IMG/VR virus record: IMGVR_UViG_3300013131_000159
Span: 1 to 31,183 of that record
DNA from: a virus
DNA: 31,183 bases
Strand: one strand, 5' to 3'
In this document: positions 2 through 24,310 of the stretch, in pieces
Position numbering within the stretch: position 1 is the first letter of the stretch
Layout of the letters: each line of letters begins with the position of its first letter
Program-made: the position numbers and the translations under genes
The notes under the pieces: model-generated
Seen by the model: the letters and a program-made list of their open reading frames with translations, nothing else
The model's database searches: none
What the model was told of the DNA's origin: nothing

Positions 2-766
2 GTGACCCTGCACAAGAACGCCGCTAGCGGTGTGGTCAACGTCAGTAAGAAATTACTCGGTGACTGTGCCGAATTGGATGCGGTTCAGAAGTTTGTGGGC
101 AACGTGCGGAACACGCACTACGCGATGACTCAGCCTTGGTCGGATACAGGCTTGCGGCTCTTATCAACTGCTATGTTTCACAAGCGGTATCAGAAGGAAA
201 TGTCGGCGCACCAAGCGGAGTTTGATACTCTCGTTGATAAGTTTCTCAATGCTTACGATTGGGAGATTACGCAGGCGCAGGCAAAACTTGGGGATATGTT
301 TAGTGTGTCGGACTATCCGAGTAAAGAGGAACTGAAGCACAAGTTTAAGTTTCAACTCGTTCAGATGCCCCTGCCTGATGCGGGAGACTTTCGGCTCGAT
401 GTAAACAACGAGGCGCAAGACATACTAAGAAAACAGTATGCGGAGCACTACGAGAGGATGCTCGAAAGTGCGATGAAGGACATATGGGACAAGGCGTACG
501 AGGCTCTCAATAAGATGAGCGAGCGTCTTGATTACAAGGATGCGGATACTAAGAAAATATTTCGCGATAGCCTTGTGGATAACGTGATGGACGTAGTAGA
601 ACTTCTCAGCCTGTGTAACGTCACTAACAATCAGCAGATGTCGGCGATGAAGAGCAAGCTAGAGAACGCGTTACTTGGTGTTACGCCTGATGCCCTGCGG
701 GAGGACGAGTACTTACGCAAGGAGACTAAGGGTAAGGTGGACGAGATATTGAGTCTGTTTAACTAA
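2..766 (+). CDS. DUF3150-like phage protein, 5' end cut by window
   Basis: The reading frame is open to the left edge and the GTG at position 2 has no visible ribosome binding site, so the true start is probably outside the window. The 254 visible residues are soluble and mostly helical, with conserved-looking blocks around residues 37-52 (NTHYAMTQPWSDTG) and 105-130 (a DYPS box, then a MPLPDAGDFRLD stretch). From memory this pattern belongs to phage proteins encoded next to MoxR-like ATPases, probably DUF3150; I could not search for it. The next two genes are exactly that AAA+ ATPase and a VWA protein, which supports a three-component complex. No catalytic motif is visible and the biochemical role is unknown. 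The family name is the uncertain part; the gene itself is clear. Confidence 0.75.
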   Translation: MTLHKNAASGVVNVSKKLLGDCAELDAVQKFVGNVRNTHYAMTQPWSDTGLRLLSTAMFHKRYQKEMSAHQAEFDTLVDKFLNAYDWEITQAQAKLGDMFSVSDYPSKEELKHKFKFQLVQMPLPDAGDFRLDVNNEAQDILRKQYAEHYERMLESAMKDIWDKAYEALNKMSERLDYKDADTKKIFRDSLVDNVMDVVELLSLCNVTNNQQMSAMKSKLENALLGVTPDALREDEYLRKETKGKVDEILSLFN

Positions 767-769
767 TTT

Positions 770-786
770 GTACAACGACGTCGTAC
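770..786. promoter_or_regulatory. Palindromic operator-like site, copy 1
   Basis: GTACAACGACGTCGTAC is a 17-bp inverted repeat with one mismatched pair around a central A. It begins three bases after the stop codon of the DUF3150-like gene and ends 23 bases before the AAA+ ATPase start. The same motif recurs at 1929, 3226 and 5601. A dimeric repressor or activator site is the likeliest reading. A T-run follows, so a weak attenuator hairpin (7-bp stem, 3-nt loop) is an alternative. Confidence 0.6.
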
Positions 787-809
787 TTTTTAAACTAGGA
801 GAAGTTAAC

Positions 810-1928
810 ATGAGCAAGAGCAACTCAGCAGTATCAATGTATGACCTGACTCTGAATCAGGCAACGCAGTTAGTCAAAACCATTGGCATGGAGCGTACCG
901 TCATGGTGCAGGGCCACATGGGCGAGGGCAAGAGCAGTATCCTCAAGGTGTTAGGCGATAACCTCAAAGCCACACACCATATGTATTACTTTGACTGTAC
1001 CACTAAAGATCTTGGCGACATTACTGTGCCTAAGCTGAAAGAAGTTATGGTGGACGATGAGGGGCGCGAGTTTGTGCGGTACGTGCCCAACGAAGAACTT
1101 GGCCTGCATTTGGGCAAGCCGATTATTCTGATGATTGACGAGTATGGTAAGGCGAATCGGGCGGTGCAGAACGCGATGCTAAGGTTGATGCTTGAGCGCC
1201 GGACTGCGGGATATGAGTTACATCCTGACTCGTTAATCTTTGCAACGACAAACCTAGGCGGTGAGGGAGTGGGTGACATACTACCCGCCCATGCGAGGAA
1301 TCGCATCGTGGTGGTGCGGTTGAAAAAGAGCGACAACATCACATGGATTGAGAACTTTGCAATCAACAACAACCTTGATCCTACGCTGATTGCATACGTC
1401 AAGGACAACCCACAGATTTGCCAATCGTACGAGGAAGTATCTAACCCTGACGATAACGAGCACATCTTTCATCCGAAGGCACAACGTACGGCGTTTGTTA
1501 CTAAGCGGTCACTCCATGCGGCGTCTGACATATTGAAGAAACGCGATCAGCTAGATGACATAACGCTGACGTCTGCTCTCATGGGCACTATCGGTGAGCG
1601 TAGCGCGATGGACTTGATGGCGTTTGTCAAGGTAGCGGAGCAGTTACCTAGCCTTGAGTCTATTAAGAAAACACCACGCGAGGCCAAGGTTCCCGATAGC
1701 CCTGCCGCAGTATGTATGGTGATCTATCGCACATTGTCCTGCATTGATCGGGATTGGATTGATGCGTGGATGGAGTACTTGCCACGCTTGGATCGCGAGG
1801 CGCAGGGTCTGTTTGCTAATGGGGTACGTAGTCCCAAGTATGGCAGGCAGTCACTCGTCATGCAGAACAAGAAGTTTACTGAGTGGTCGTTGGCTAACAA
1901 CGATATGTTTACTGCTGACAAGAAATAA
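810..1928 (+). CDS. MoxR/CobS-like AAA+ ATPase
   Basis: This 372-aa protein is an AAA+ ATPase. Walker A is GHMGEGKS (residues 35-42), Walker B is ILMIDE (D110, E111), the sensor-1-like stretch is LIFATTN (142-148), and an LPAHARNR stretch (158-165) matches the arginine-rich box of MoxR-type ATPases. ATG 810 is chosen over an upstream TTG at 768 because a good Shine-Dalgarno (AGGAG, 797-801) sits just before it and the TTG version would translate the palindrome at 770. Known family behaviour: MoxR/CobS ATPases work with a VWA protein to remodel or load a partner. The VWA gene follows directly and a DUF3150-like gene precedes it, so the three probably form one complex. The cellular target in this phage is unknown. 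Confidence 0.92.
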   Translation: MSKSNSAVSMYDLTLNQATQLVKTIGMERTVMVQGHMGEGKSSILKVLGDNLKATHHMYYFDCTTKDLGDITVPKLKEVMVDDEGREFVRYVPNEELGLHLGKPIILMIDEYGKANRAVQNAMLRLMLERRTAGYELHPDSLIFATTNLGGEGVGDILPAHARNRIVVVRLKKSDNITWIENFAINNNLDPTLIAYVKDNPQICQSYEEVSNPDDNEHIFHPKAQRTAFVTKRSLHAASDILKKRDQLDDITLTSALMGTIGERSAMDLMAFVKVAEQLPSLESIKKTPREAKVPDSPAAVCMVIYRTLSCIDRDWIDAWMEYLPRLDREAQGLFANGVRSPKYGRQSLVMQNKKFTEWSLANNDMFTADKK

Positions 1929-1945
1929 GTACAACGACGTAGTAC
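1929..1945. promoter_or_regulatory. Palindromic operator-like site, copy 2
   Basis: GTACAACGACGTAGTAC, a near copy of the site at 770, begins on the base after the ATPase stop codon. It lies 20 bases upstream of the VWA gene start and is again followed by a short T-run. Its left half (GTACAACG) is intact and its right half has one symmetry mismatch. The placement immediately before the next gene argues for local control of that gene. Confidence 0.6.
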
Positions 1946-1965
1946 TTTTATAAGGAAACCATAAT

Positions 1966-3177
1966 ATGTTAATGATTAACAAACCACTTACTCCAGCTCA
2001 ACGCCTGAGTAAAAATGTAGTCGCAATCATGGGCAGTAAGTATCAAGCCCTGTCGGGTACGTTGATGATTGGCTCTCGGCAAATCTGTGACAAGACCCCT
2101 ACTGCTAAAACAAATGGCAGGGACGAGTGGTATGGCGAGAAGTTTGTCGATGGCCTCAACGATCCTGAGTTGCGGTTCTTAATTCTTCACGAGGTCTATC
2201 ACAAGTTGTATCGCCACTTGGTTACGTGGAGGCATCTCTATGATGTTGACGCTGACCTTGCAAACAAGGCGTGTGATTACGTGATCAACCTAAAACTCTA
2301 CGATGACAACAAGCAAGACGGGTTTGCAGTCATGCCCAAGGGTGGACTACTAGACGAGAAGTATCGTGGTCTACACGCAGGCGAGGTCTTTAAGTTGTTA
2401 CAACAAGAACAGGAAGAAGGTGGCGGCGATGGCAAAGGCAAACCCGAAGAGGGAGAAGGCGGCGGTGCATCCGGTAGTATGGATGAACATGATTGGGATG
2501 GGGCGCAAGAACTCTCAGAGGAAGAGAAGAAACAATTGGAGCGCGAACTTGACGAAGCGATCCGTCAGGGAGCGTTGGTCGCGGGTAAGACCGGAACGGG
2601 CGCGATGCGTGGCCTTGAAGAACTGCTGAAGGCCAAGGTAGATTGGCGTGAACAGTTGCGTGAGTTTGTCTCTGAGATATGTGTGGGTAAAGATATGTCC
2701 ACGTGGCGCAGGCCGAATCGCAGGTTCATCAGCGAGGGTGTGTACTTACCGTCATCAATCAGCGAGAGCATGGGTGAACTTGTTATCGCGGTGGATACAT
2801 CGGGGTCAATCGGGCAGAAAGAACTCAGTCAGTTTATGAGTGAGTGCAAGGTGATCTTTGATTCGGTGCGGCCTGAGACTGTACGCATACTCTATTGGGA
2901 TACTGCCATTTGCGGTGATGAAGTCTACAAGCAAGAAGAGTTAGAAAGAATCTTGGATGCGACAAAGCCCAAGGGTGGCGGTGGCACAGACGTTAACTGT
3001 GTAACAACTTATCTCAAGGATAAGAACGTCAAGCCAGAAGCTGTGATTGTATTTACTGATGGCTATCTTGGTGGTGAGTGGGGGTCGTGGGGTGGTATCC
3101 CGTTGTTGTGGTGTTTCATAGACAACCGATCTGCTAACCCGCCGTATGGTAAGAAGTTATTTGTAGACTTGGACTAA
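1966..3177 (+). CDS. Metallopeptidase-like / VWA-domain protein (DUF2201 type)
   Basis: This 403-aa protein has two recognisable halves. The N-terminal part carries LHEVYH with an HExxH zinc-binding pattern (H75, E76, H79), followed by an ADLANKACDYVIN stretch (95-108) typical of the putative metallopeptidase domain DUF2201_N. Residues about 145-190 form a Gly/Glu/Asp-rich linker. The C-terminal VWA domain has a complete MIDAS: DTSGS (277-281), T341 in GGGGTD, and D365 in VFTDG. The start at ATG 1966 follows an AAGGA ribosome site. It lies just after its AAA+ partner, as in MoxR-VWA and CobS-CobT pairs, and the acidic linker also resembles CobT. Whether the HExxH centre is an active protease cannot be told here. 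The function in the phage is unknown. Confidence 0.9.
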   Translation: MLMINKPLTPAQRLSKNVVAIMGSKYQALSGTLMIGSRQICDKTPTAKTNGRDEWYGEKFVDGLNDPELRFLILHEVYHKLYRHLVTWRHLYDVDADLANKACDYVINLKLYDDNKQDGFAVMPKGGLLDEKYRGLHAGEVFKLLQQEQEEGGGDGKGKPEEGEGGGASGSMDEHDWDGAQELSEEEKKQLERELDEAIRQGALVAGKTGTGAMRGLEELLKAKVDWREQLREFVSEICVGKDMSTWRRPNRRFISEGVYLPSSISESMGELVIAVDTSGSIGQKELSQFMSECKVIFDSVRPETVRILYWDTAICGDEVYKQEELERILDATKPKGGGGTDVNCVTTYLKDKNVKPEAVIVFTDGYLGGEWGSWGGIPLLWCFIDNRSANPPYGKKLFVDLD

Positions 3178-3187
3178 GGAGAACGAA

Positions 3188-4135
3188 ATGTTTGGACCTA
3201 AATCATTTGACGAAGCGAAGGAAAAGTACAACGCCGTTGTACCTGTGGTAAGTAAACTTCACTCAATCCAACAAGACGTGCGCCCTATTGGTCAACGTCG
3301 CCGCAAGTGGGAGAGGATTGTGAAGGTCAGCGAAACTTGTTACGGGTTGAGCGATGGTAACTACTCTGATATGTGGTCACCAAGTTTTGACAAGACGTAT
3401 GTCAACAACATGATGCCGATCTTATGGGAGAGGCGCGAAGATGGTGACTATATGCGACTGCGTGGTGTTGTGGAAGGCCACACTTCACACGGTCGTGTAG
3501 AGTTTCTTCATCAGTACTTACCGCCACACATGAGTGCTTATGCAAAAAACGGCAAACTTTACATATGGTGGGGGAGCAAAGCATTTTATTTACCAAAGAC
3601 CAAATATAAATGGAATCATCAAACCAACACGGCATCTGAAGATGACAAAATATTTTTAGAATTTAAACACGTTGGCGATAACAATTTTGAACGTGTTAAT
3701 TTAATCGTGGCTGCCTCCACTCGCATAGACATACCCGCGAAGAAAAGACTTAAACCTTACATTCAATCTTTCTTTGATTGGGTTTGTGTCATGCGTAACA
3801 TGATGGTGTGTACCCATGAAGCTAGAGAAGAGTACGTCAAACAACTTCACACGTGGGCTTATGAAAATAAAATAGACATATCAAACACATTTTATAGAAT
3901 AATGCACAACACCATTGACAGTACTGCCATGCAACAAATTATTGTTGACCCTGCACATCCTATGCGTACTGCGGTCGGTGCTTTGTTGCTCTATGAACTT
4001 GATCTAGTTAATTGGAGGGGCGAACCACTTGATCACAAGTACCCTAGTGAGAAAGAGTTTAAGCGGCACGTCGCGGCTAAGTACAATCTTTGGGTAACCA
4101 GAGCATTAAATTTGTACAAGCAAGAAGAGTTTTAA
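3188..4135 (+). CDS. Unrecognised 315-aa phage protein
   Basis: I do not recognise this protein. It starts at an ATG with a strong ribosome site (AAGGAG, 3177-3182) ten bases after the VWA gene, so it belongs to the same operon. It has no signal peptide, transmembrane segment or familiar catalytic motif. It is rich in Trp, Tyr and His, and its C-terminal part (about residues 190-260) looks helical. A perfect copy of the 17-bp palindrome lies inside the coding sequence at codons 13-19. From about 3540 the DNA becomes visibly more A/T-rich than the start of the gene, which may reflect recombination. Co-transcription with the AAA+/VWA pair makes an accessory or substrate role possible, but that is inference. 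Confidence 0.85.
   Translation: MFGPKSFDEAKEKYNAVVPVVSKLHSIQQDVRPIGQRRRKWERIVKVSETCYGLSDGNYSDMWSPSFDKTYVNNMMPILWERREDGDYMRLRGVVEGHTSHGRVEFLHQYLPPHMSAYAKNGKLYIWWGSKAFYLPKTKYKWNHQTNTASEDDKIFLEFKHVGDNNFERVNLIVAASTRIDIPAKKRLKPYIQSFFDWVCVMRNMMVCTHEAREEYVKQLHTWAYENKIDISNTFYRIMHNTIDSTAMQQIIVDPAHPMRTAVGALLLYELDLVNWRGEPLDHKYPSEKEFKRHVAAKYNLWVTRALNLYKQEEF
3226..3242. promoter_or_regulatory. Palindromic operator-like site, copy 3 (intragenic, perfect)
   Basis: GTACAACGCCGTTGTAC is a perfect inverted repeat around a central C. It lies 38 bases inside the coding sequence that starts at 3188 and encodes part of a KYNAVVP peptide. Perfect symmetry kept within coding DNA argues against a terminator and for a protein-binding site, for example a roadblock or internal operator. 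Confidence 0.6.
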
Positions 4136-4161
4136 TAACTAACTTTATGTGGAGAAAAATT

Positions 4162-5142
4162 ATGTCTACAAAAATCAGAACCGTTGATGATTTGAAAACG
4201 AAAACAAAACTGTCGGTAATCAAATCAAATGAAGAACGCAAGGAAGCGGCTACAAATGGGGAGACTGAGTTTGCGCCTCAGATAAACGAAGTGCCCCTGC
4301 ATCCTAACTTGTATGCGTTTCTCAATGAGTATTTCAAAGTCTACAAGGGGTTGTCGCTTGGCGTTTCAGGGGGAGAGAATTGGTATTGGCATGGGGATAA
4401 CAATAAGCAGCATCGTGCGTACAGAGAAGTTTGGATATACAAGGACAACGAACGTTATGCGCGAGGCTCAGTTGGGTATGGCCCATTTCGCGTGGACCAT
4501 GAGTCTGAGTTTGTGTACATGGTCTATGACCGAACAATTAAGAATAATAAGTACAGGCCCGACAGATATCAGCATCACATGATGTTGTCATCAGACATGA
4601 AGTCTGCGTTAAAACACGCCTATAAATATCTTAAGCCGTATCACATTACCGAAGTGGCGGAGCTGGACAGGGAAGATTACAAAGATAGTCTGCATCAGGT
4701 GGTGTATCACAAGCAGAATCTTGCCAAGGCTTTCCTGTCAGATAAGCTAGACACAAAAGATATCTTGCGAGAGTTACGCACCATGATTACCACAGGGCAT
4801 AAGTTCTCATCAGAAAATTTTCACAACAATTTAGTTCAGTTTTTTGCCAAACAAGATGAAGCTGATGCGGCGTCAAAGAAGTCTACAAATGCCTATTACG
4901 TGTTCATCCGGCCAGGTGAAGGTGACGAATCATACGCTGACATATTAGAGGCTAAGGACGTAGGGAGAAACGTGTATGGCAATACGGCTACGTACTTAAA
5001 CCCGACTACTGTAAAAATGTCTGATATCCCTGTTGACATAGCGGGTAAATTAGCGGTAATTAATATGCTTGAGCACAAACACTATTGCGAAGGTGTTGGC
5101 ATGAAGATCAGTAATGAAGTGTTTTGGGTAGAGCGCGAATGA
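4162..5142 (+). CDS. Unrecognised 326-aa phage protein
   Basis: I do not recognise this protein. ATG 4162 is preferred because GGAG at 4151-4154 is correctly spaced; an in-frame ATG at 4147 and the long upstream extension have no such site. It is soluble, with an aromatic-rich N-terminal domain (residues about 50-160), a lysine-rich helical middle and a C-terminal domain of about 45 residues. That last part, including DIPVDIAGKLAV and ending NEVFWVERE, resembles the end of the next gene's product (VDDLPDWAKERLAV and KDVFWIYPNT), so the two may share a small domain. Its stop overlaps the next start by four bases (ATGA), indicating translational coupling. Position suggests it belongs with the AAA+/VWA module. 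Confidence 0.85.
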   Translation: MSTKIRTVDDLKTKTKLSVIKSNEERKEAATNGETEFAPQINEVPLHPNLYAFLNEYFKVYKGLSLGVSGGENWYWHGDNNKQHRAYREVWIYKDNERYARGSVGYGPFRVDHESEFVYMVYDRTIKNNKYRPDRYQHHMMLSSDMKSALKHAYKYLKPYHITEVAELDREDYKDSLHQVVYHKQNLAKAFLSDKLDTKDILRELRTMITTGHKFSSENFHNNLVQFFAKQDEADAASKKSTNAYYVFIRPGEGDESYADILEAKDVGRNVYGNTATYLNPTTVKMSDIPVDIAGKLAVINMLEHKHYCEGVGMKISNEVFWVERE

Positions 5143-5594
5143 CTATATCTATTGTTGATGCGACAGGTAAAGCCATTGATCTGAAGTTGTGTCCTGATGA
5201 GATCGTTAGAGATTTACATTCTGCCGGTTATCAAATGGTAACTCATCGCGAGCGCGAGAGAAGCCACCACACATATCAAGGTCATAAGTTGACATATTGG
5301 GTCATGTCTTGTCAGTTTACGAACATGATGACGGGCGAGCATTTATCAATGGAGGATGAAAAAATATATCGCCTTGAAATAAACTCAAAGGGTGTTACAG
5401 TTGTGTGCTATGGATTAGATGCAGTAGATAATGAATTAAAACTTTACTATTCTTCCGTTGACGATCTACCCGATTGGGCTAAGGAACGACTAGCAGTTTT
5501 GTATTTACTTGACCCTACCAAACTTAATCAGAACGTTGATAAAGTTGGGCGGCGTATTAACAAGGATGTGTTTTGGATTTACCCTAATACGTAA
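5139..5594 (+). CDS. Unrecognised 151-aa protein with a C-terminal domain shared with its upstream neighbour
   Basis: The start ATG 5139 overlaps the preceding stop in an ATGA junction, so translation is probably coupled and no independent ribosome site is needed. The protein has no membrane segment or known motif. Its last 40 or so residues (VDDLPDWAKERLAV and RRINKDVFWIYPNT) align by eye with the C-terminus of the protein encoded at 4162-5142. This suggests a duplicated domain, or a split of one ancestral gene. It is the last gene before the palindrome pair at 5601-5638, which probably marks the end of the AAA+/VWA-associated block. Function unknown. Confidence 0.8.
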   Translation: MTISIVDATGKAIDLKLCPDEIVRDLHSAGYQMVTHRERERSHHTYQGHKLTYWVMSCQFTNMMTGEHLSMEDEKIYRLEINSKGVTVVCYGLDAVDNELKLYYSSVDDLPDWAKERLAVLYLLDPTKLNQNVDKVGRRINKDVFWIYPNT

Positions 5595-5600
5595 TAAAAA

Positions 5601-5638
5601 GTACAACGCCGTTGTACAAAAGTATCGCGGCGTTGTAC
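5601..5638. promoter_or_regulatory. Palindromic operator-like sites, copies 4 and 5 (tandem)
   Basis: GTACAACGCCGTTGTAC (5601-5617) is a perfect inverted repeat identical to copy 3. A second, degenerate copy lies at 5622-5638; its right half CGTTGTAC is intact and its left half is eroded. The start-to-start distance is 21 bp, about two helical turns, which would place two bound dimers on the same DNA face. The pair sits in a 61-bp gap before the nuclease operon, where a promoter-operator would be expected. No convincing -35/-10 pair was found. Confidence 0.6.
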
Positions 5639-12921: not shown

Positions 12922-13329
12922 ATGTCTGAAGAGCAACAGTCAAATGTTCCTATTGAAAAATTGGTAAAGATTTATTTAAAAATCAGAACCAAACGAGAGG
13001 AACTAGCCAATGAGTTTGAAAAAGAGAACGCTAATCTTGAAGCTCAAATGAGTAAGATCAAGGGTGCGTTACTTGATCACTGTAAAGCAAACAATGCCGA
13101 TTCAATTCGTACGCCAGAAGGTTTGTTTTACAGAACCATAAAAAAGAAGTACACGACAAACGATTGGGCGTCTTTGCATAACTTTATTCTTGAGCATCAA
13201 GTGCCACAGTTGTTAGCAAAGTCAATCCATCAAAGCAATATGCAAGAGTTTTTGGAATCAAACCCCGAATTGCTTCCACCGGGTTTAAGTGTGGATAGCG
13301 AGTATGTGTTAACAATAAGGAGAAAGTGA
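12922..13329 (+). CDS. Conserved phage coiled-coil protein, 135 aa
   Basis: ATG 12922 follows a strong AAGGAGAA ribosome site. Residues 10-55 form a charged heptad-like helix (KLVKIYLKIRTKREEL, then EKENANLEAQM). The C-terminal half contains KKKYTTNDWASLHNFI and a PPGLSVDSEYVLTIRR ending that I associate from memory with a widespread phage family found near replication genes. Some such proteins resemble Gam-type host-nuclease inhibitors, but the match is too loose to claim. Its stop overlaps the next start, so the next gene is coupled. A DNA-end or replication accessory role is plausible. Confidence 0.78.
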   Translation: MSEEQQSNVPIEKLVKIYLKIRTKREELANEFEKENANLEAQMSKIKGALLDHCKANNADSIRTPEGLFYRTIKKKYTTNDWASLHNFILEHQVPQLLAKSIHQSNMQEFLESNPELLPPGLSVDSEYVLTIRRK

Positions 13330-13598
13330 TGGTGGCAACAGATGCGTACGTATCAATTGAGGAAGTAGCTAAGTATTTTTCTGTATCGGTTTCAACTGTA
13401 CGAGCGTGGTTAAGACAAGGGTTTATACCGAAAGAAGCGTATTTAAAAATTGGGCATACTTACAGGTTCAAGATTAAAGACGTGGAGCATTACTTGATCA
13501 CCGCAAAACAGAAAGAAGTTAAAGTTAAAGAAGAATTAGTCAAAGCTGATAACCCACAGCAGTTAAAGTTAGACTTTGGCACAGATGATGACGTTTAA
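13329..13598 (+). CDS. Excisionase/MerR-type helix-turn-helix DNA-binding protein
   Basis: The 89-aa protein has a clear HTH_17-like domain: YVSIEEVAKYFSVSVSTVRA (residues about 6-25) followed by the WLRQGFIP turn and a GHTYRFKIKDVEHYL wing. The tail is lysine/glutamate-rich. Three near starts exist (GTG 13326, ATG 13329, GTG 13332); ATG 13329 best fits the AAGGAG at 13317-13322. Proteins of this kind act as excisionases or small transcription regulators. No integrase or attachment site is seen, so a regulator is more likely. It is a candidate binder of the GTACAACG palindromes, though MerR-like single domains usually bind direct or asymmetric sites. Confidence 0.85.
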   Translation: MVATDAYVSIEEVAKYFSVSVSTVRAWLRQGFIPKEAYLKIGHTYRFKIKDVEHYLITAKQKEVKVKEELVKADNPQQLKLDFGTDDDV

Positions 13599-17802: not shown

Positions 17803-17831
17803 CCCCCGGTAGAGTTACCGGGGGGTTTTTT
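17803..17831 (+). terminator. Intrinsic terminator of the + strand early operon
   Basis: CCCCCGGTA (17803-17811) pairs perfectly with TACCGGGGG (17816-17824) around the loop GAGT, then G and six T residues (17826-17831). This is a textbook rho-independent terminator for + strand transcription. Read on the - strand, the stem is followed by AAATACC, not a U-tract, so it is not an efficient terminator for the converging late operon, whose last stop codon abuts it. Confidence 0.9.
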
Positions 17832-20800
17832 CAAAACTCTTCGTCTTCAAGGTCTTGCATTTCACGCAACGCCCTAGCCCGCTCGGTGGGGCTAAGCACG
17901 ATGCCGTGATACATGGTGGCAGTAGTTTTCATGTGCTGCTCCATTGACCGGAGGATAGTGTCAGCATCAATACCAACTTCTGGGTGCTTCTTATTGAAGT
18001 CCATAATTTCTTTCATCACATCACTAGCACCCTGCTGATCCCCAACTCGCGTAGCCATATAGTAATGGCGCAGAAGTTTGGTTTTGGTTTCCCCAATAGT
18101 CCGATCAACTCGTTTACGGTTGGCATTATCTTCCAACTGCCGAACATACTCGGCAGGAGCAAAACCAAATCCTTGAGCTATAGAGTTCCAAGGGCTTACT
18201 TCGCTGACAACCGGATCACCACGCAACGTGTTGGCTCCCTGGGTAGCGTATCGAACCCCTTTAAAAACGTTACCAATGGCTGAAGGGAGCATCTGCTCCA
18301 TACCCCGCATGAAGTCGCCTTCCTCAGTCCAAGTTTTAAAGCCACGATTCATACGCTCAGCCGAACCAATTACTGGGCCTCCCATTAAAACAAGCAGGCT
18401 GGCAATAGCACCTTGGTCACTTGGAGCCATAGAGTCGCGGAAAATTAAATCAGATAAACCAACACGATTAGAAATTTCTAATCCAGTCAGCGGATTGATA
18501 ATTCCTTTATATGGTAACTCGCCAATATATTTACGGGTAACAGTTTCAAAGTCATCTTCGTCATCACCCTTAAGGATGTTGTAGACCATCGCTGCAATAC
18601 CAAACATCGGTATGCCACGTACTCCGGCTAGCAAAGCAGCACTACCAAAAATACCACCAATTTGTGCCATAGCAGCGCGTCGAACGGCAGGGTCTGCATC
18701 ACCGTAAGCCTCCCGAGCAGTCTTAAACATCATGTAGTACATAGACGCACCGTACCGCTTGTACATGAAAAGAACTTTACCAATACCGGACTGAGCGATT
18801 GACGGCGCCGCCGCAGCAGAAATCCCACCGTTTGTTATCTCAGTCAGATAAATAGCGTTTTCGGCTGCGCGTTCTTCCATTTGTTGTTGAGTTAAACCTC
18901 GCTCGTTTGCTTCAGGTTTGTTCTTTAACCGTTGCAACTCAAGGTCATAAGCAGCCATGAGTGATATTTCACGGTTCATCCGCTCGCCGTGGTGAAACAT
19001 TGCACCGGATGCGGCATTAACTTGAGATAAAATATTCTTATCCCCCTGTTGAACATCCAGAATGTCGTACATCTGCGAACGGTTAAACTGACCATTTGCA
19101 CGGCCGACCCGAACTAAAGTTTCATACATCTTGACGTTAGCAGATAAGTTAGGATCGTCAAAGTTGTAATTATCCAGCGAGAACATCGCCTTCATTTTGA
19201 CTTTCTTTCCGGTTAAACCTTCTACCTCACGCTTAAACCCGCTACCCATATAAATGCGCGTAGCACGAGTAAATGCTTTAAATGCTTGTGCAGGGTTATT
19301 GCCTTTGCGGAAAGACAAGTACGGGTAAACAACTAAGGGTATTTGCGATAAGTTAATTAGGGCTGAAGATAAGTTAAACCCCAGCGTCATGTTAAATCCA
19401 AATGACGTAGCAATCTTAGACCACTGCGGGATGTCCGGACTCATGGCAAAGTCAGCGTGTTTAAATACTTCGTCTAAGTACGGACGCGCAATTTCAGGAC
19501 TGCCAGATGCACGGAAATCTTCTTCCATGCGTGTCTTTAACCTAGATAGTTTAGAAGCGTATTCAATATTAGCTAACTGCCGGGATATGCCATAAGCCCT
19601 TCGGCTCAGGGTATCTACAATGTCTTGGTTAAAACCAAGTGTGCCTTGGCGTCGATTAAATGATTGAGCAAAAGAAGATACAGGCATATTGGATAAAATT
19701 AGCCGAATTACCTGATCTTGGGTTTCGCTACCCACTTTGTTATTAGTGAGTATCTTCATTAACTGGCTGGCAAAAGAAGCAGATGGTGCGTTACGGTAAG
19801 CGTTCTTATCTAATTTGGAGAAAGCCTCCACATCGGATACACCTTCTTTACCATCTATATAGTCCATAAATTGTCTGCGTTCACGAGCAGTTTCAAACGT
19901 TTGAACGTACCGCTCAATGTTTCCTTTTGGCCCAGGCGCGTTGTAAGACAGCCAATAGCTACCTTGCCGCTCAAATGGATAATAAGGATCAAGCCCCGCA
20001 CGATCAGTTAACAGGTCAAAGAACTCTTTTTTGGCTCTGGCTGCTTGAGTCTTATCCGATACAGTCTCATCAATTTCTTTGCCCACGACCCGCTTAATTT
20101 CGTCATACATTTTGCTGTAGACTTTGGCTACATCGTTGTAAATTTGTTTACCTGCGGGAGTAAGTCTTTCATATCGTGACTTAAAATCGTCATAGTCTTT
20201 TAGTTCTTCTGGGTTCTTTTCGTACTGTTTCCTGTTGTTTAATGGATTAACCTGTGAGCGCGACGCTTCCAACGCCAAAACAGATGCAAGTTTGTTTTGC
20301 TCAGGATTTTTTGATGCCAGTTCTGAAAGAATTTTAATATCAGCTTCAAGTTTTTGGTTTCGTATAGATTCAGAACCAGACTTCTGCTCAATTAAAGCGT
20401 TAAGCTCTTTGGCTCTTGGCACGTATTTAGCCGAAACGTCTGCTAATGCGTTTAACGGAAGAACAGATAACAATCCACGGCGGAGTAAATCTGGTATTTT
20501 CATAGCCAGAACTTCGTGGAATTTATTTATTTTGTTGTTGTCCAGCACTCCAAATGACTGCGCCCGATCTAACATACCGTTAAACATCTTCTCAACTTTG
20601 CCGGGTTCGGTAAGTGCAGCAGCAAATAGTTTGCCAGCGTTACGACTTTCGGGGGCAGGGGAAAGGATAGACTCAATTAAAGCGTTAGCTTCAGTAAACG
20701 CACTCTGTATCGGCAACGGCTTAATTCCTACCATCTGACGCAGGAAGTTAGTTACCGTGCTTACAAACCGCTGCCATGCGGTAATCTTGCCACCCTTGGG

Positions 20801-23800
20801 GTTTATTGATGCTAACTTTTGTTGAAACTGTGGATTACTAAAGGCTTCAGCTACAAACTCATCAAGGCTTGTTGCGCCGTAAGCTGTGTCCAAAGATCCT
20901 TTTACATCGTCATAAAGTTGTTTGAGCTGTTTTGTAACCGGATGCGATGGGTTATCCAGCACATGAGAAGTAGCAGCGTGAGCACCTTCGTGCAGCAGAA
21001 CATGGGGAACCATGCCTGTTTTAGAGTCTAAGTAAATAGTATCTGTCTTAGGATCATAGTAACCAGGCGTTGCTTTGCCAGCATCGTCTAACAAGTTACT
21101 TTCTACAACGACACGTGTGCGTGGGTTGGTAGATGCTAATTTAGCCGCAAGTCGTGAAACAATTCCTTCGTTACGCCCGGCTAAAGATGTCATGGCGCCT
21201 AAAAAGTCGCCATCTTTTAGCATCTGCTGGATGCCAGGATGCAACGGGAAGCCAAGAGATACTATTTCGTTTTGCAACAGACGCTTCAGGTTTTTCTGTT
21301 CCTGTTGAGCGCGTTGCATTTCAATGTCTACTTGAGCAAATGCCTCTTCCTCTGTCTTGCCTTCCTTAATCAGTTCAACCATCCGCTTGGTATCTACGTC
21401 ACCGTAAACATATTGCAGCGTGGTTTCATTGATTGAGGTTTCAATATTGATAAGTGCCTGAATGTCTTTATCGTTTAATTTACCTTCTTCAAACTTAAGC
21501 ACGTACTTTTGCATTAAAAGTTTGGCATCATTACTTAAGTTTTTATTAACCCAGTTAAAAGCCAGCCGTGCATTAGCGCCGCTAGTACCACGGAAGAAGG
21601 CAGTCTCAATCGCACCCTCACCTTCGCGCCGGAAAAGTGGTGGGTCATATACAACGTCAAATGCTACGTTAATGATGTTGTCCACTACACGGGACATTTT
21701 GCCCATGTAAATGCGGGCAGCGCGGGCAATCTCATTTAACTTAGTTGGGGGTGCTTCCAGAAGCTCTTCAATCTTAACAGCATCAGATGCAGGGGTAGGG
21801 TCGGTCTTTTCAAAACTTGAATACCGTACGCTTTGCACTTCAGCAAAATTAGTTAACGGCCCTTCTTCCTCCACTACTTCCGGCTTTTCTTTTGCCGGAC
21901 GTCCACGCTTTTTAGCAGCTACAGGCTCAGCAGTTTCAGGAGCGCTCGGTGCTTTAGGCTCTTTGGGAGCGGCAGCTTTAGGCTTAGCAGGAGCAGGTTC
22001 TTTAGCAGGTGCAGTAGCAGTTGCTTTAGCACCTCTTTCAGCAGCTCCAGTGGCAGGTTTTCCAGCCAGTTGAGAAGCTGCTTCCGCCTCGATTTCAGCC
22101 ATTTCATCAGCAGTTAACTCCTCTTTTACTGCAGCGGGCTGCTTTCCTTTTCCAGTTTCAGTTGGAACAGCACCTCGCTCAGCACCGCCCAATCCAGCTC
22201 GTTCAGATGCCGCAGGTTTTTGGGCGGTAGGCTCTCGTCGTTTACCAGGAACTCCAGCGCCTTCTCTATCTGCTCCAGAGACAGTTTCTGCAATACTGCT
22301 TGGAACAGGTTTTCTTGCTTTTCCACTTGGCGCCTCCTTAACTTTAATACCACCCTTGGGGCCAAACATTTCACCTTGCGTAGCCAAAGCACCAAAAGCC
22401 TGGCCTGCAACAACTTCAACGCCCTGTTTTGTGGACAAAGAAAGATTAGGGTTAGCCCTAACCTGTTGAAGAACTTTACTTACGGCAGCCGCATCTTGCG
22501 GATTAGCCATATCCTTATTAAGAAGTTGCCGATAGAACCCAGACTGCTTAGCTAATCCTGTGTTATCAAGAACTTCAGGGGTCAGAACCGTTGTAAACTG
22601 TGGCTCAACTGAACCTACTTCTTCGGCAGGGGGAGCTATTCTCTTACCAATCCCAGGTATGCCCAACTGTTGAGGCTCACGGGCTTCTGTTTTTTCTGGA
22701 ATCTGCGCTTCTAATTCAGTAAGGCTAGTCCTAGTAATAGGGGCGGTAGGTGTTGGCCCTTTGATTTCTTCAGTAACTTCTGGCTCAGCGGCACGTACGT
22801 CATAAGCTCTAGCGATAAGTGCTTCTTCACGTGGTGTTAAGTTAAGGTTTGTTATACCAGCTCTACGCAGCTCCGCTTGAAACTTAGCCTCTATATTTTT
22901 AACTGCAGTATCTTCAATCACAGGAAGTAACAACGCCAGCCGTTGCTGCTCTGCCAATATCTCCCTGCCAACCTCCGTCCGTGCATCTGTTTCGGCTAAA
23001 GCAGATTCAAATCTTAATTTATTAAGTTCTGCTTTTCTTTGCTCAGGAGTGATATCTGCGTCAATTAATTCTCTAATTTGACGAGCTTCTAACTCGTCAA
23101 TCATGTCGCGGGTTGATGTATCCCGTGACGGTGCTTCTTCTTTTAACTCACTTATTGCCGGTTCTTTAGTAGGCAGGATATCCCCTAATAAGTCAGGCTG
23201 TGCTGCGCCAAACGTTTCCTGGAGACCAGCCTCACGGGCTTGCCGTGCCATAGCGAACTGCTCTGGCGATAGATTCCCTTGGACTAACTGTTCGGTCAAA
23301 CGGCGATCTTCTTTCCGTTCGCCTTGCTCTCTCATGTACTTGTCGTACTGTTCTTGTGTAGCCGCAACCGATCCGTCGGGTAAAGCTACCGGGGTAAAAG
23401 GCTTTTGGTCGTACCCAAGAAGTGCCGTTTCGGCTTTTTTTTCTGGTTCTTTTTCTGGCTCTTTACCTGCGTCACGGGCTGCTCGGTAGGCTTTTCTTCC
23501 TATGGTCAGGTCAACCAGCATACTTGCCAGCGCACCTGCACCAGCACCATAAGCTCCCTCCTCACCAGCCCCAACCAAAAGTTCTTGCGATGGGTCGTAA
23601 ACACCTTGGGCAATAAGATTTTGGGCTACTTGCTGAGCCGCTTCAGTTGCACCTTCAACCCCACCTTTTACAAACGCTCTAGTAATTAGGGTTTTCCCTA
23701 TTTTTAAATTTGGTGCAACTATATCTAAAAGGCCGGGGCCGATACCCATAGCGGTTGCCATAGCCCGCTCATCACTTGTTACGCCTTTCGCCTCAGCTCT

Positions 23801-24310
23801 CTCACGTGCTTCTCCAGCGCCAGCAGAGACACCAGTAGCCACCCCAGCAGCAACACCTTTACGGCCAAAAGGAGCGAAAGCAAAGAACGGAAGCGTCGAA
23901 CCAAGCGCCTCACCAAGTTTGCGGCCAACGGTATCTTCATATCCCCTCTCCGCTGCAAGCCCACCTTTAACGGGTGCTACAAAACTTTCTACTGCACTAC
24001 GAACTGCGCGTTCTTGTTCATCAGGCAGTATTGAAGCCGCGCCAGTAGTTGCAACTTCAAGTAATCTTGCTGCACCTGGGGCTAATCCTTTACCAAATTC
24101 TTTAATCTGCCCGCCTATAGTTGGCTCTGGCGGTGGTTCCGGCAGAATAGCGCTTTTACGTATTGCTTCAAGTTGACGGTTAAACTCTTCTTGCTGCCGC
24201 TGTCTAGCATAAGATTGCGCTACTGCAATAAGTTGACGATTTGACGCTCCAACCGGACCTTCAATCTCGTAAATTAATCCGTCTGGACCTTGAATTTGAT
24301 AAATAGGCAT
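17831..24310 (-). CDS. Giant internal virion / large polyvalent protein with gluzincin motif
   Basis: This 2159-aa protein is the last gene of the late operon. It begins MPIYQIQGPDGLIYEIEGP, an N-terminal signature shared by many phage internal-virion proteins. Residues about 80-290 are Gly/Ala-rich and partly hydrophobic. Residues about 640-830 are a Pro/Ala/Lys/Glu-rich disordered stretch containing an AT-hook-like KKRGRPAK (800-807). A zinc-peptidase motif HEGAH (H1107, E1108, H1111) is followed by DEFVAEAF (1150-1157), whose glutamate can be the third gluzincin ligand. The C-terminal part (about 1500-2150), including a FMYKRYGASMYYMM stretch near 1845, resembles LPD38-type domains of large polyvalent phage proteins. 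It is probably packaged and ejected into the host. No RNA polymerase motifs were recognised. Confidence 0.88.
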   Translation of the reverse strand: MPIYQIQGPDGLIYEIEGPVGASNRQLIAVAQSYARQRQQEEFNRQLEAIRKSAILPEPPPEPTIGGQIKEFGKGLAPGAARLLEVATTGAASILPDEQERAVRSAVESFVAPVKGGLAAERGYEDTVGRKLGEALGSTLPFFAFAPFGRKGVAAGVATGVSAGAGEARERAEAKGVTSDERAMATAMGIGPGLLDIVAPNLKIGKTLITRAFVKGGVEGATEAAQQVAQNLIAQGVYDPSQELLVGAGEEGAYGAGAGALASMLVDLTIGRKAYRAARDAGKEPEKEPEKKAETALLGYDQKPFTPVALPDGSVAATQEQYDKYMREQGERKEDRRLTEQLVQGNLSPEQFAMARQAREAGLQETFGAAQPDLLGDILPTKEPAISELKEEAPSRDTSTRDMIDELEARQIRELIDADITPEQRKAELNKLRFESALAETDARTEVGREILAEQQRLALLLPVIEDTAVKNIEAKFQAELRRAGITNLNLTPREEALIARAYDVRAAEPEVTEEIKGPTPTAPITRTSLTELEAQIPEKTEAREPQQLGIPGIGKRIAPPAEEVGSVEPQFTTVLTPEVLDNTGLAKQSGFYRQLLNKDMANPQDAAAVSKVLQQVRANPNLSLSTKQGVEVVAGQAFGALATQGEMFGPKGGIKVKEAPSGKARKPVPSSIAETVSGADREGAGVPGKRREPTAQKPAASERAGLGGAERGAVPTETGKGKQPAAVKEELTADEMAEIEAEAASQLAGKPATGAAERGAKATATAPAKEPAPAKPKAAAPKEPKAPSAPETAEPVAAKKRGRPAKEKPEVVEEEGPLTNFAEVQSVRYSSFEKTDPTPASDAVKIEELLEAPPTKLNEIARAARIYMGKMSRVVDNIINVAFDVVYDPPLFRREGEGAIETAFFRGTSGANARLAFNWVNKNLSNDAKLLMQKYVLKFEEGKLNDKDIQALINIETSINETTLQYVYGDVDTKRMVELIKEGKTEEEAFAQVDIEMQRAQQEQKNLKRLLQNEIVSLGFPLHPGIQQMLKDGDFLGAMTSLAGRNEGIVSRLAAKLASTNPRTRVVVESNLLDDAGKATPGYYDPKTDTIYLDSKTGMVPHVLLHEGAHAATSHVLDNPSHPVTKQLKQLYDDVKGSLDTAYGATSLDEFVAEAFSNPQFQQKLASINPKGGKITAWQRFVSTVTNFLRQMVGIKPLPIQSAFTEANALIESILSPAPESRNAGKLFAAALTEPGKVEKMFNGMLDRAQSFGVLDNNKINKFHEVLAMKIPDLLRRGLLSVLPLNALADVSAKYVPRAKELNALIEQKSGSESIRNQKLEADIKILSELASKNPEQNKLASVLALEASRSQVNPLNNRKQYEKNPEELKDYDDFKSRYERLTPAGKQIYNDVAKVYSKMYDEIKRVVGKEIDETVSDKTQAARAKKEFFDLLTDRAGLDPYYPFERQGSYWLSYNAPGPKGNIERYVQTFETARERRQFMDYIDGKEGVSDVEAFSKLDKNAYRNAPSASFASQLMKILTNNKVGSETQDQVIRLILSNMPVSSFAQSFNRRQGTLGFNQDIVDTLSRRAYGISRQLANIEYASKLSRLKTRMEEDFRASGSPEIARPYLDEVFKHADFAMSPDIPQWSKIATSFGFNMTLGFNLSSALINLSQIPLVVYPYLSFRKGNNPAQAFKAFTRATRIYMGSGFKREVEGLTGKKVKMKAMFSLDNYNFDDPNLSANVKMYETLVRVGRANGQFNRSQMYDILDVQQGDKNILSQVNAASGAMFHHGERMNREISLMAAYDLELQRLKNKPEANERGLTQQQMEERAAENAIYLTEITNGGISAAAAPSIAQSGIGKVLFMYKRYGASMYYMMFKTAREAYGDADPAVRRAAMAQIGGIFGSAALLAGVRGIPMFGIAAMVYNILKGDDEDDFETVTRKYIGELPYKGIINPLTGLEISNRVGLSDLIFRDSMAPSDQGAIASLLVLMGGPVIGSAERMNRGFKTWTEEGDFMRGMEQMLPSAIGNVFKGVRYATQGANTLRGDPVVSEVSPWNSIAQGFGFAPAEYVRQLEDNANRKRVDRTIGETKTKLLRHYYMATRVGDQQGASDVMKEIMDFNKKHPEVGIDADTILRSMEQHMKTTATMYHGIVLSPTERARALREMQDLEDEEF

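Follow-up and report, generated by a model that had tools for sequence, protein, structure and literature searches.

In MoxR-VWA pairs, the metal ion-dependent adhesion site (MIDAS) of the VWA protein engages an acidic residue on the client, with the AAA+ ring as the source of force (PMC4660213, PMC13036017); CbbQO binds rubisco through MIDAS (PMC4660213), and NorQD inserts metal (PMC13036017). In MoxR-vWA ternary conflict systems the third component is VMAP, iSTAND, FtsH or a propeller (PMC7159879). Among phages, a MoxR ATPase paired with a metallopeptidase-VWA protein has already been described in jumbo phages (PMC7824862), and the pair forms the core proteins gp24/gp25 of N4-like phages, gp24 and gp25 of N4 being middle genes (PMC4193335). 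Here we analysed a 31,183-base virus record (IMG/VR record IMGVR_UViG_3300013131_000159, hereafter the window), the first 5.6 kb of which hold a cassette of six + strand genes encoding such an ATPase-VWA pair, a DUF3150-like protein (the triad, together with the pair) and three further proteins, g3188, g4162 and g5139. The window comes from a group of uncultured water phages carrying the same gene block, in which, judged by sequence comparison, the cassette is a real, conserved and probably co-regulated six-gene unit.

Conservation of the six-gene cassette

All six open reading frames were confirmed on the + strand. Searching IMG/VR with the VWA protein and the ATPase yielded 98 loci, from which profiles were built. 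Linkage was counted, after clustering of the ATPase at 95% identity, in the 52 core loci whose sequence continues for 4.5 kb or more downstream of VWA. An earlier note, made from the window alone, had described a tight ATPase/VWA/DUF3150-like unit followed by three further genes, which was borne out: these co-directional genes were conserved across the core loci, with g4162 and g5139 accompanying the pair in 52/52, DUF3150 in 51/52 and g3188 in 42/52, and for the genes downstream of the pair neither order nor strand differed in any of the 52. In the reverse direction, the ATPase and VWA genes were present in 39 of 40 g3188-seeded loci with 4 kb of upstream sequence and lay upstream in 36/36 g4162-seeded loci with enough sequence. 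Relatives holding the pair without a consistent downstream trio, the case the earlier note had set against itself, were not seen inside the phage group; outside it, N4-like, jumbo and Rhizobium phages carry the pair without g3188, g4162 and g5139. By this distribution the three are clade-specific partners and not part of every phage ATPase-VWA system. More distant relatives (L009, L013 and L020) retain the triad with DUF3150 moved behind the VWA gene and the rest only partial. Among 84,980 species of bacteria and archaea whose genomes were searched with the g4162 profile, no prophage was matched (one profile, one collection).

Comparison of 14 full-length contigs (59–68 kb) and the window placed the ATPase, VWA, DUF3150, g4162 and g5139 genes in 15/15 sequences, like DNA polymerase, SNF2 helicase and primase, and g3188 in 14/15 (13/14 full-length contigs). 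This presence in essentially every group member bears on the idea, raised in the earlier note, of counter-defence, to which host shut-off may be added: an early module disarming host immunity in phages and plasmids alike. An early position and occurrence on conjugative plasmids would suit such a module, and clade-specific adaptors could track different targets; yet the genes are not patchy, the neighbours include no defence genes, and PADLOC models matched the cassette proteins only weakly, apparently no better than noise (best mad8, E 0.0009, over a P-loop stretch). Because the genes are core, an accessory counter-defence role is argued against, and we consider counter-defence or host shut-off distinctly unlikely.

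PHROGs assigned the ATPase to phrog_1297 and the VWA protein to phrog_1314. The ATPase contains Walker A (GHMGEGKS) and Walker B (ILMIDE) motifs whose key residues are 99–100% conserved (134 sequences). In the VWA protein, predicted earlier to combine an intact MIDAS with a zinc-peptidase motif, both features were confirmed (150 sequences): the HExxH residues H75/E76/H79 are 99% conserved, and of the MIDAS residues (DTSGS 277–281, T341 and D365) D277/S279/S281 are conserved at 100%, T at 97% and D at 98%. Since the Walker A/B, HExxH and MIDAS residues are 97–100% conserved, these sites appear to be under strong selection. Pfam placed DUF2201_N (E 6e-28, 98.7 bits, cut-off 23.2) and DUF2201 (E 1e-19, 71.0 bits, cut-off 26.4) on the VWA protein; in PHROGs (phrog_1314) and in many GenBank records, metallopeptidase-VWA proteins of the N4 gp25 type bear the name 'HNH endonuclease', a label that looks wrong, since Pfam gives DUF2201_N and DUF2201.

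The ATPase had been called MoxR/CobS-like; phrog_1297 and the Walker motifs fit the MoxR part, but the cobaltochelatase CobS model TIGR01650 reached only 11.4 bits against a cut-off of 558.6. This score speaks against a chaperone of the CobS/CobT or NorQD kind that inserts metal into a metalloenzyme, for which metal insertion by the MoxR-VWA pair NorQD offers a precedent (PMC13036017), and the conserved neighbours include no metalloenzyme; we find such a function very improbable.

The contig edge truncates the DUF3150-like gene, and as relatives have about 30–45 more N-terminal residues, the GTG at position 2 is not the true start. This truncated protein scored below the cut-off with Pfam PF11348 (E 0.08, 12.7 bits, cut-off 24.9), and the DUF3150 model was matched at E ≤ 0.01 by 20 of the 31 members of its alignment (best 3.5e-7). 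The ATPase gene starts at ATG 810 behind AGGAG, not at TTG 768, which lies at an operator. In several phages a small zinc-ribbon protein is encoded directly upstream of DUF3150 (L267:3845–4087, L271:8190–8405 and L278:2499–2750).

The three partners had been noted as lacking a recognised family, and none indeed has a significant match in Pfam, PHROGs, NCBIfam or PADLOC. For g3188 and g4162 there was no match among PDB sequences or in the phage collection searched, and single-protein scans with them found nothing, alignments being required. Their AlphaFold models are confident (mean predicted local distance difference test score 90 each), and fold searches with these gave no PDB match at E < 0.001 (best VIA Z 4.2 and 4.5). 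g3188 has the conserved motif DIRPIGDRxRKWERI and resembles only uncharacterised proteins of uncultured phages; a relationship to g4162 was rejected by profile. g4162, diverged to a median identity of 27% with order and adjacency kept and the intervening small genes varying, starts at ATG 4162, and g5139 at ATG 5139, overlapping the g4162 stop (ATGA). These two proteins have about 45 C-terminal residues in common (hhalign 97%, E 2.6e-11), with the motif LPxWxxxRLAxLxM...VxGVGRRI...FWV in g5139, suggesting that they may bind one common partner. Seven more distant loci also have the domain next to the VWA gene, either by itself or as part of a fusion; a small protein of Rhizobium TM27A was rejected as a further case (E 9.1, not significant).

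Table 1. Features of the cassette and its operator copies in the window
Feature	Position	Strand	Remarks
DUF3150-like protein, 5'-truncated by contig edge	2..766	+	homologues in 51/52 core relatives, plasmids, MinM2
Palindromic operator copy 1, GTACAACGACGTCGTAC	770..786		one mismatch
MoxR-type AAA+ ATPase, start ATG 810	810..1928	+	phrog_1297, E 2.6e-48
Palindromic operator copy 2, GTACAACGACGTAGTAC	1929..1945		one mismatch
DUF2201 protein: N-terminal zincin-like HExxH and C-terminal VWA with MIDAS	1966..3177	+	N4 gp25 family
g3188, family of unknown function	3188..4135	+	42/52 core relatives
Palindromic operator copy 3, inside 5' end of g3188	3226..3242		perfect
g4162, family of unknown function, C-terminal domain in common with g5139	4162..5142	+	52/52 core relatives
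g5139, small protein with shared C-terminal domain	5139..5594	+	52/52 core relatives
Palindromic operator copy 4, cassette end	5601..5617		perfect
Operator copy 5, weaker	5622..5638		14/17

Elsewhere in the window, a 2,159-residue protein (17831–24310, − strand) has an HExxH stretch of its own (HEGAH) and is kept in 14/14 full-length contigs.

Palindromic arrays at early gene junctions

The operators that the earlier note had seen as shared by the six genes proved a strong feature: in most relatives a single perfect palindrome, specific to the phage, is repeated 4–13 times and almost only in the early block. The window palindrome GTACAACGNCGTTGTAC has four to five copies in the cassette and none elsewhere in the window; across the rest of the 31 kb no independent match was better than 12/17, and five shuffles never exceeded 14/17. 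Relatives have the same arrangement at gene junctions with another sequence, specific to each phage: 84 of 114 cassette loci held four or more perfect palindromes built on a single arm sequence, and up to 13, against never more than one in 60 shuffled loci. Arrays lie in the window at 770–5638 and in loci L003–L261 and L262–L316. Within a phage the arms are constant (GTTAGTG, GTTAGGG, GTTAGGC, GTTATAC, TTTAGGGA, TTCGGGCA, GTATGGG and others) and the centre varies. A ribosome-binding site with its start codon followed within 75 bases at 331 of 588 sites, compared with 24% for control positions. The 14 full-length contigs hold 121 sites: 109 fell within their early blocks, which total 133 kb, and 6 stood immediately upstream of SNF2, leaving 6 for the remaining 749 kb; in several contigs the SNF2 gene is preceded by one palindrome site.

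Near-sites mostly break the pairing of the arms (37 broken, 9 wobble and 2 paired), so that the palindromes are putative DNA operators rather than RNA hairpins; hairpins at the junctions were rejected on these mostly uncompensated mismatches, and an Rfam search was empty. A helix-turn-helix (HTH) protein of excisionase/MerR-like type (window 13326–13598), present in every contig of the group, is unlikely to read the operators: phages that differ in their operators (G002/G010 and G004/G015) have an identical or almost identical DNA-binding region in this protein. The best correlation of protein sequence with operator sequence (rho 0.58, 8 genomes) was that of early gene 1, the first gene after the first operator (L263:7913–8464 and equivalents). 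Its product, of about 170–200 residues and no family, diverges with the operator more than other families do; no HTH was recognised in it, and it is kept as a lead, a candidate regulator. A non-coding repeat, CCAGTTC...GCGnnGAG, stands among the palindromes in two or three copies (L263:8909–9060 and equivalents upstream of DUF3150 in G003, G007, G010, G011 and G013); it has no Rfam match and is perhaps an origin or a small RNA.

A plasmid-borne triad and the role of the cassette

The DUF3150 protein of a distant relative matched three cyanophage records and 42 plasmids, which are mostly from Burkholderiales and include 16 conjugative ones (the plasmid gene tables being incomplete), with E values of 1e-58 to 1e-39 for the DUF3150 hidden Markov model against the plasmid and cyanophage proteins. 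In the four plasmids examined (L325–L328) the ATPase, DUF3150 and VWA genes occur together; three have them consecutively, and the Simplicispira plasmid has its ATPase gene 3.6 kb upstream. Type IV secretion and/or PRTRC genes are near the triad in three of the four. The cultured cyanophage MinM2 (OQ594354.1; L329/L330, e.g. 45662–56967) also has all three genes; GGTTCAGnCTGAACC occurs 17 times there, in many cases ahead of a start codon within the gene block that carries the triad. One MinM2 copy lies directly before an AlpA-family gene (27195). No palindrome array was present in the two plasmid loci scanned.

These plasmids weaken the earlier suggestion that the proteins mature a phage complex. 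A chaperone-protease that remodels and cleaves structural proteins during virion assembly or maturation has been reported for tail assembly of Acidianus two-tailed virus and proposed for the jumbo-phage MoxR-metallopeptidase-vWA proteins (PMC7824862); in roseophage RPP1, virion proteins detected by mass spectrometry are encoded near gp24/gp25 homologues (PMC4193335), and the core conservation seen here is compatible with an essential late role. But plasmids have no virions, which disfavours virion assembly as the general role of the triad; phage versions could still have changed function. The window cassette, moreover, is on the same strand and in the same block as early/replication genes and on the opposite strand to virion genes, from which the operators are absent. 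Virion assembly is open for jumbo phages and suits the window cassette less well; for the latter we deem it unlikely.

The same position and operator distribution suggest early action. The reading we prefer, with an even chance of being right, is that the product of the cassette is a remodelling machine, expressed early and equipped with clade-specific adaptors, that acts in takeover or replication. The AAA+ protein would be the hexameric motor of protein remodelling of the ATP-driven, MoxR-VWA kind. The DUF2201 protein would dock on the ring and grip a client through the VWA-MIDAS metal, a carboxylate of the client completing the site, and its zincin domain may cleave or hold that client; the conserved motifs fit, by analogy, the client-binding mechanism of MoxR-VWA pairs. 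DUF3150 would be the third core subunit, with g3188, g4162 and g5139 as putative clade-specific adaptors or clients. A DNA-binding protein reading the identical palindromes would switch the upstream early genes and the cassette together, and the machine most likely works early in infection, its substrate being a host or replication complex rather than the virion. More tentatively, and with the chances somewhat against it, the triad may be an undescribed phage and plasmid machine acting at establishment, where it would remodel or cleave a common target in the host or in replication; in this clade it would have gained three private subunits and a fast-diverging palindromic operator array, a new type of early-gene switch.

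Several points weigh against the remodelling-machine reading. g3188 is absent from 10/52 core loci, and the partners, missing from N4-like and jumbo phages that retain the pair, are thus not needed in every such system. Conservation of order among related phages partly reflects ancestry, and no operator-reading regulator was found among the candidates examined. Gene content and order, core conservation, motifs, the shared domain, the operator arrays and the plasmid triad can be read from the sequences; complex formation, remodelling, operator function and target are what we infer, as is early timing, from position only. Finally, mirror-tree correlations within the cassette (0.35–0.90) were not above those with DNA polymerase (0.74–0.87), indicating that the genes follow the genome in their inheritance; on this ground, transfer of the cassette as a separate unit was rejected.

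The mirror-tree result also touches the possibility that the six genes merely share regulation, as one early operon with separate jobs and no six-protein machine. All the genes correlate with genome phylogeny, the correlation between triad and trio (g3188-ATPase 0.35) is below that within each group, and the operators also cover upstream early genes. Set against this, order and adjacency are kept despite the divergence of g4162 and the varying small genes between, and the domain in common to g4162 and g5139 also follows the VWA gene in distant loci; shared regulation as the whole explanation seems doubtful to us.

Comparison with described systems

The cassette had been put forward as a candidate for an undescribed system. 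Its pair is known from N4 gp24/gp25 and jumbo phages; the triad on Burkholderiales plasmids and in MinM2, the g4162/g5139 domain and the operator arrays are new. What the pair does in N4-like and jumbo phages is an old question, now easier to test with a conserved third subunit (DUF3150), a plasmid version that speaks against a role confined to the virion, three clade-specific partners and cultured test phages. The arrays raise a second testable question, namely which protein reads them and how specificity shifts between phages.

CbbQO rubisco activase, NorQD and RavA-ViaA resemble the window system in joining a MoxR AAA+ motor to a VWA-MIDAS partner and differ in having no DUF3150 and known bacterial clients; to our knowledge, their VWA partners have another architecture, with no DUF2201_N zincin domain. 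N4 gp24/gp25 (Schitoviridae core; phrog_1297, phrog_1314) are likewise an adjacent AAA+ ATPase and DUF2201_N-DUF2201 VWA protein: the window VWA protein aligned with N4 gp25 over 94% at 28% identity (E 1e-18), and gp25 itself matched DUF2201_N at 3e-87. DUF3150 was found neither in N4 nor in the jumbo phage MIJ3 by searches run without a positive control, and the N4 stretch examined had neither the g4162/g5139 C-terminal domain nor a palindrome array. The jumbo loci examined (MIJ3 and Muenster) have the same pair with the same domain fusion, and none of g3188, g4162 and g5139 was found there; the role proposed for the jumbo pair is virion assembly (PMC7824862), unlike the early role favoured for the window. 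Plasmids and the cyanophages MinM2, Pag-Yong1 and Pra-JY27 have all three core families close together, and MinM2 also a palindrome array, but they are without g3188, g4162 and g5139 and have the ATPase first and DUF3150 in the middle. The arrays themselves recall mycobacteriophage stoperators (PMC9283540) in that many copies of one phage-specific site lie near gene boundaries and specificity diverges among relatives; stoperators are asymmetric, oriented and genome-wide, whereas the sites described here are perfect palindromes concentrated in the early block of a phage group with no known repressor or lysogeny.

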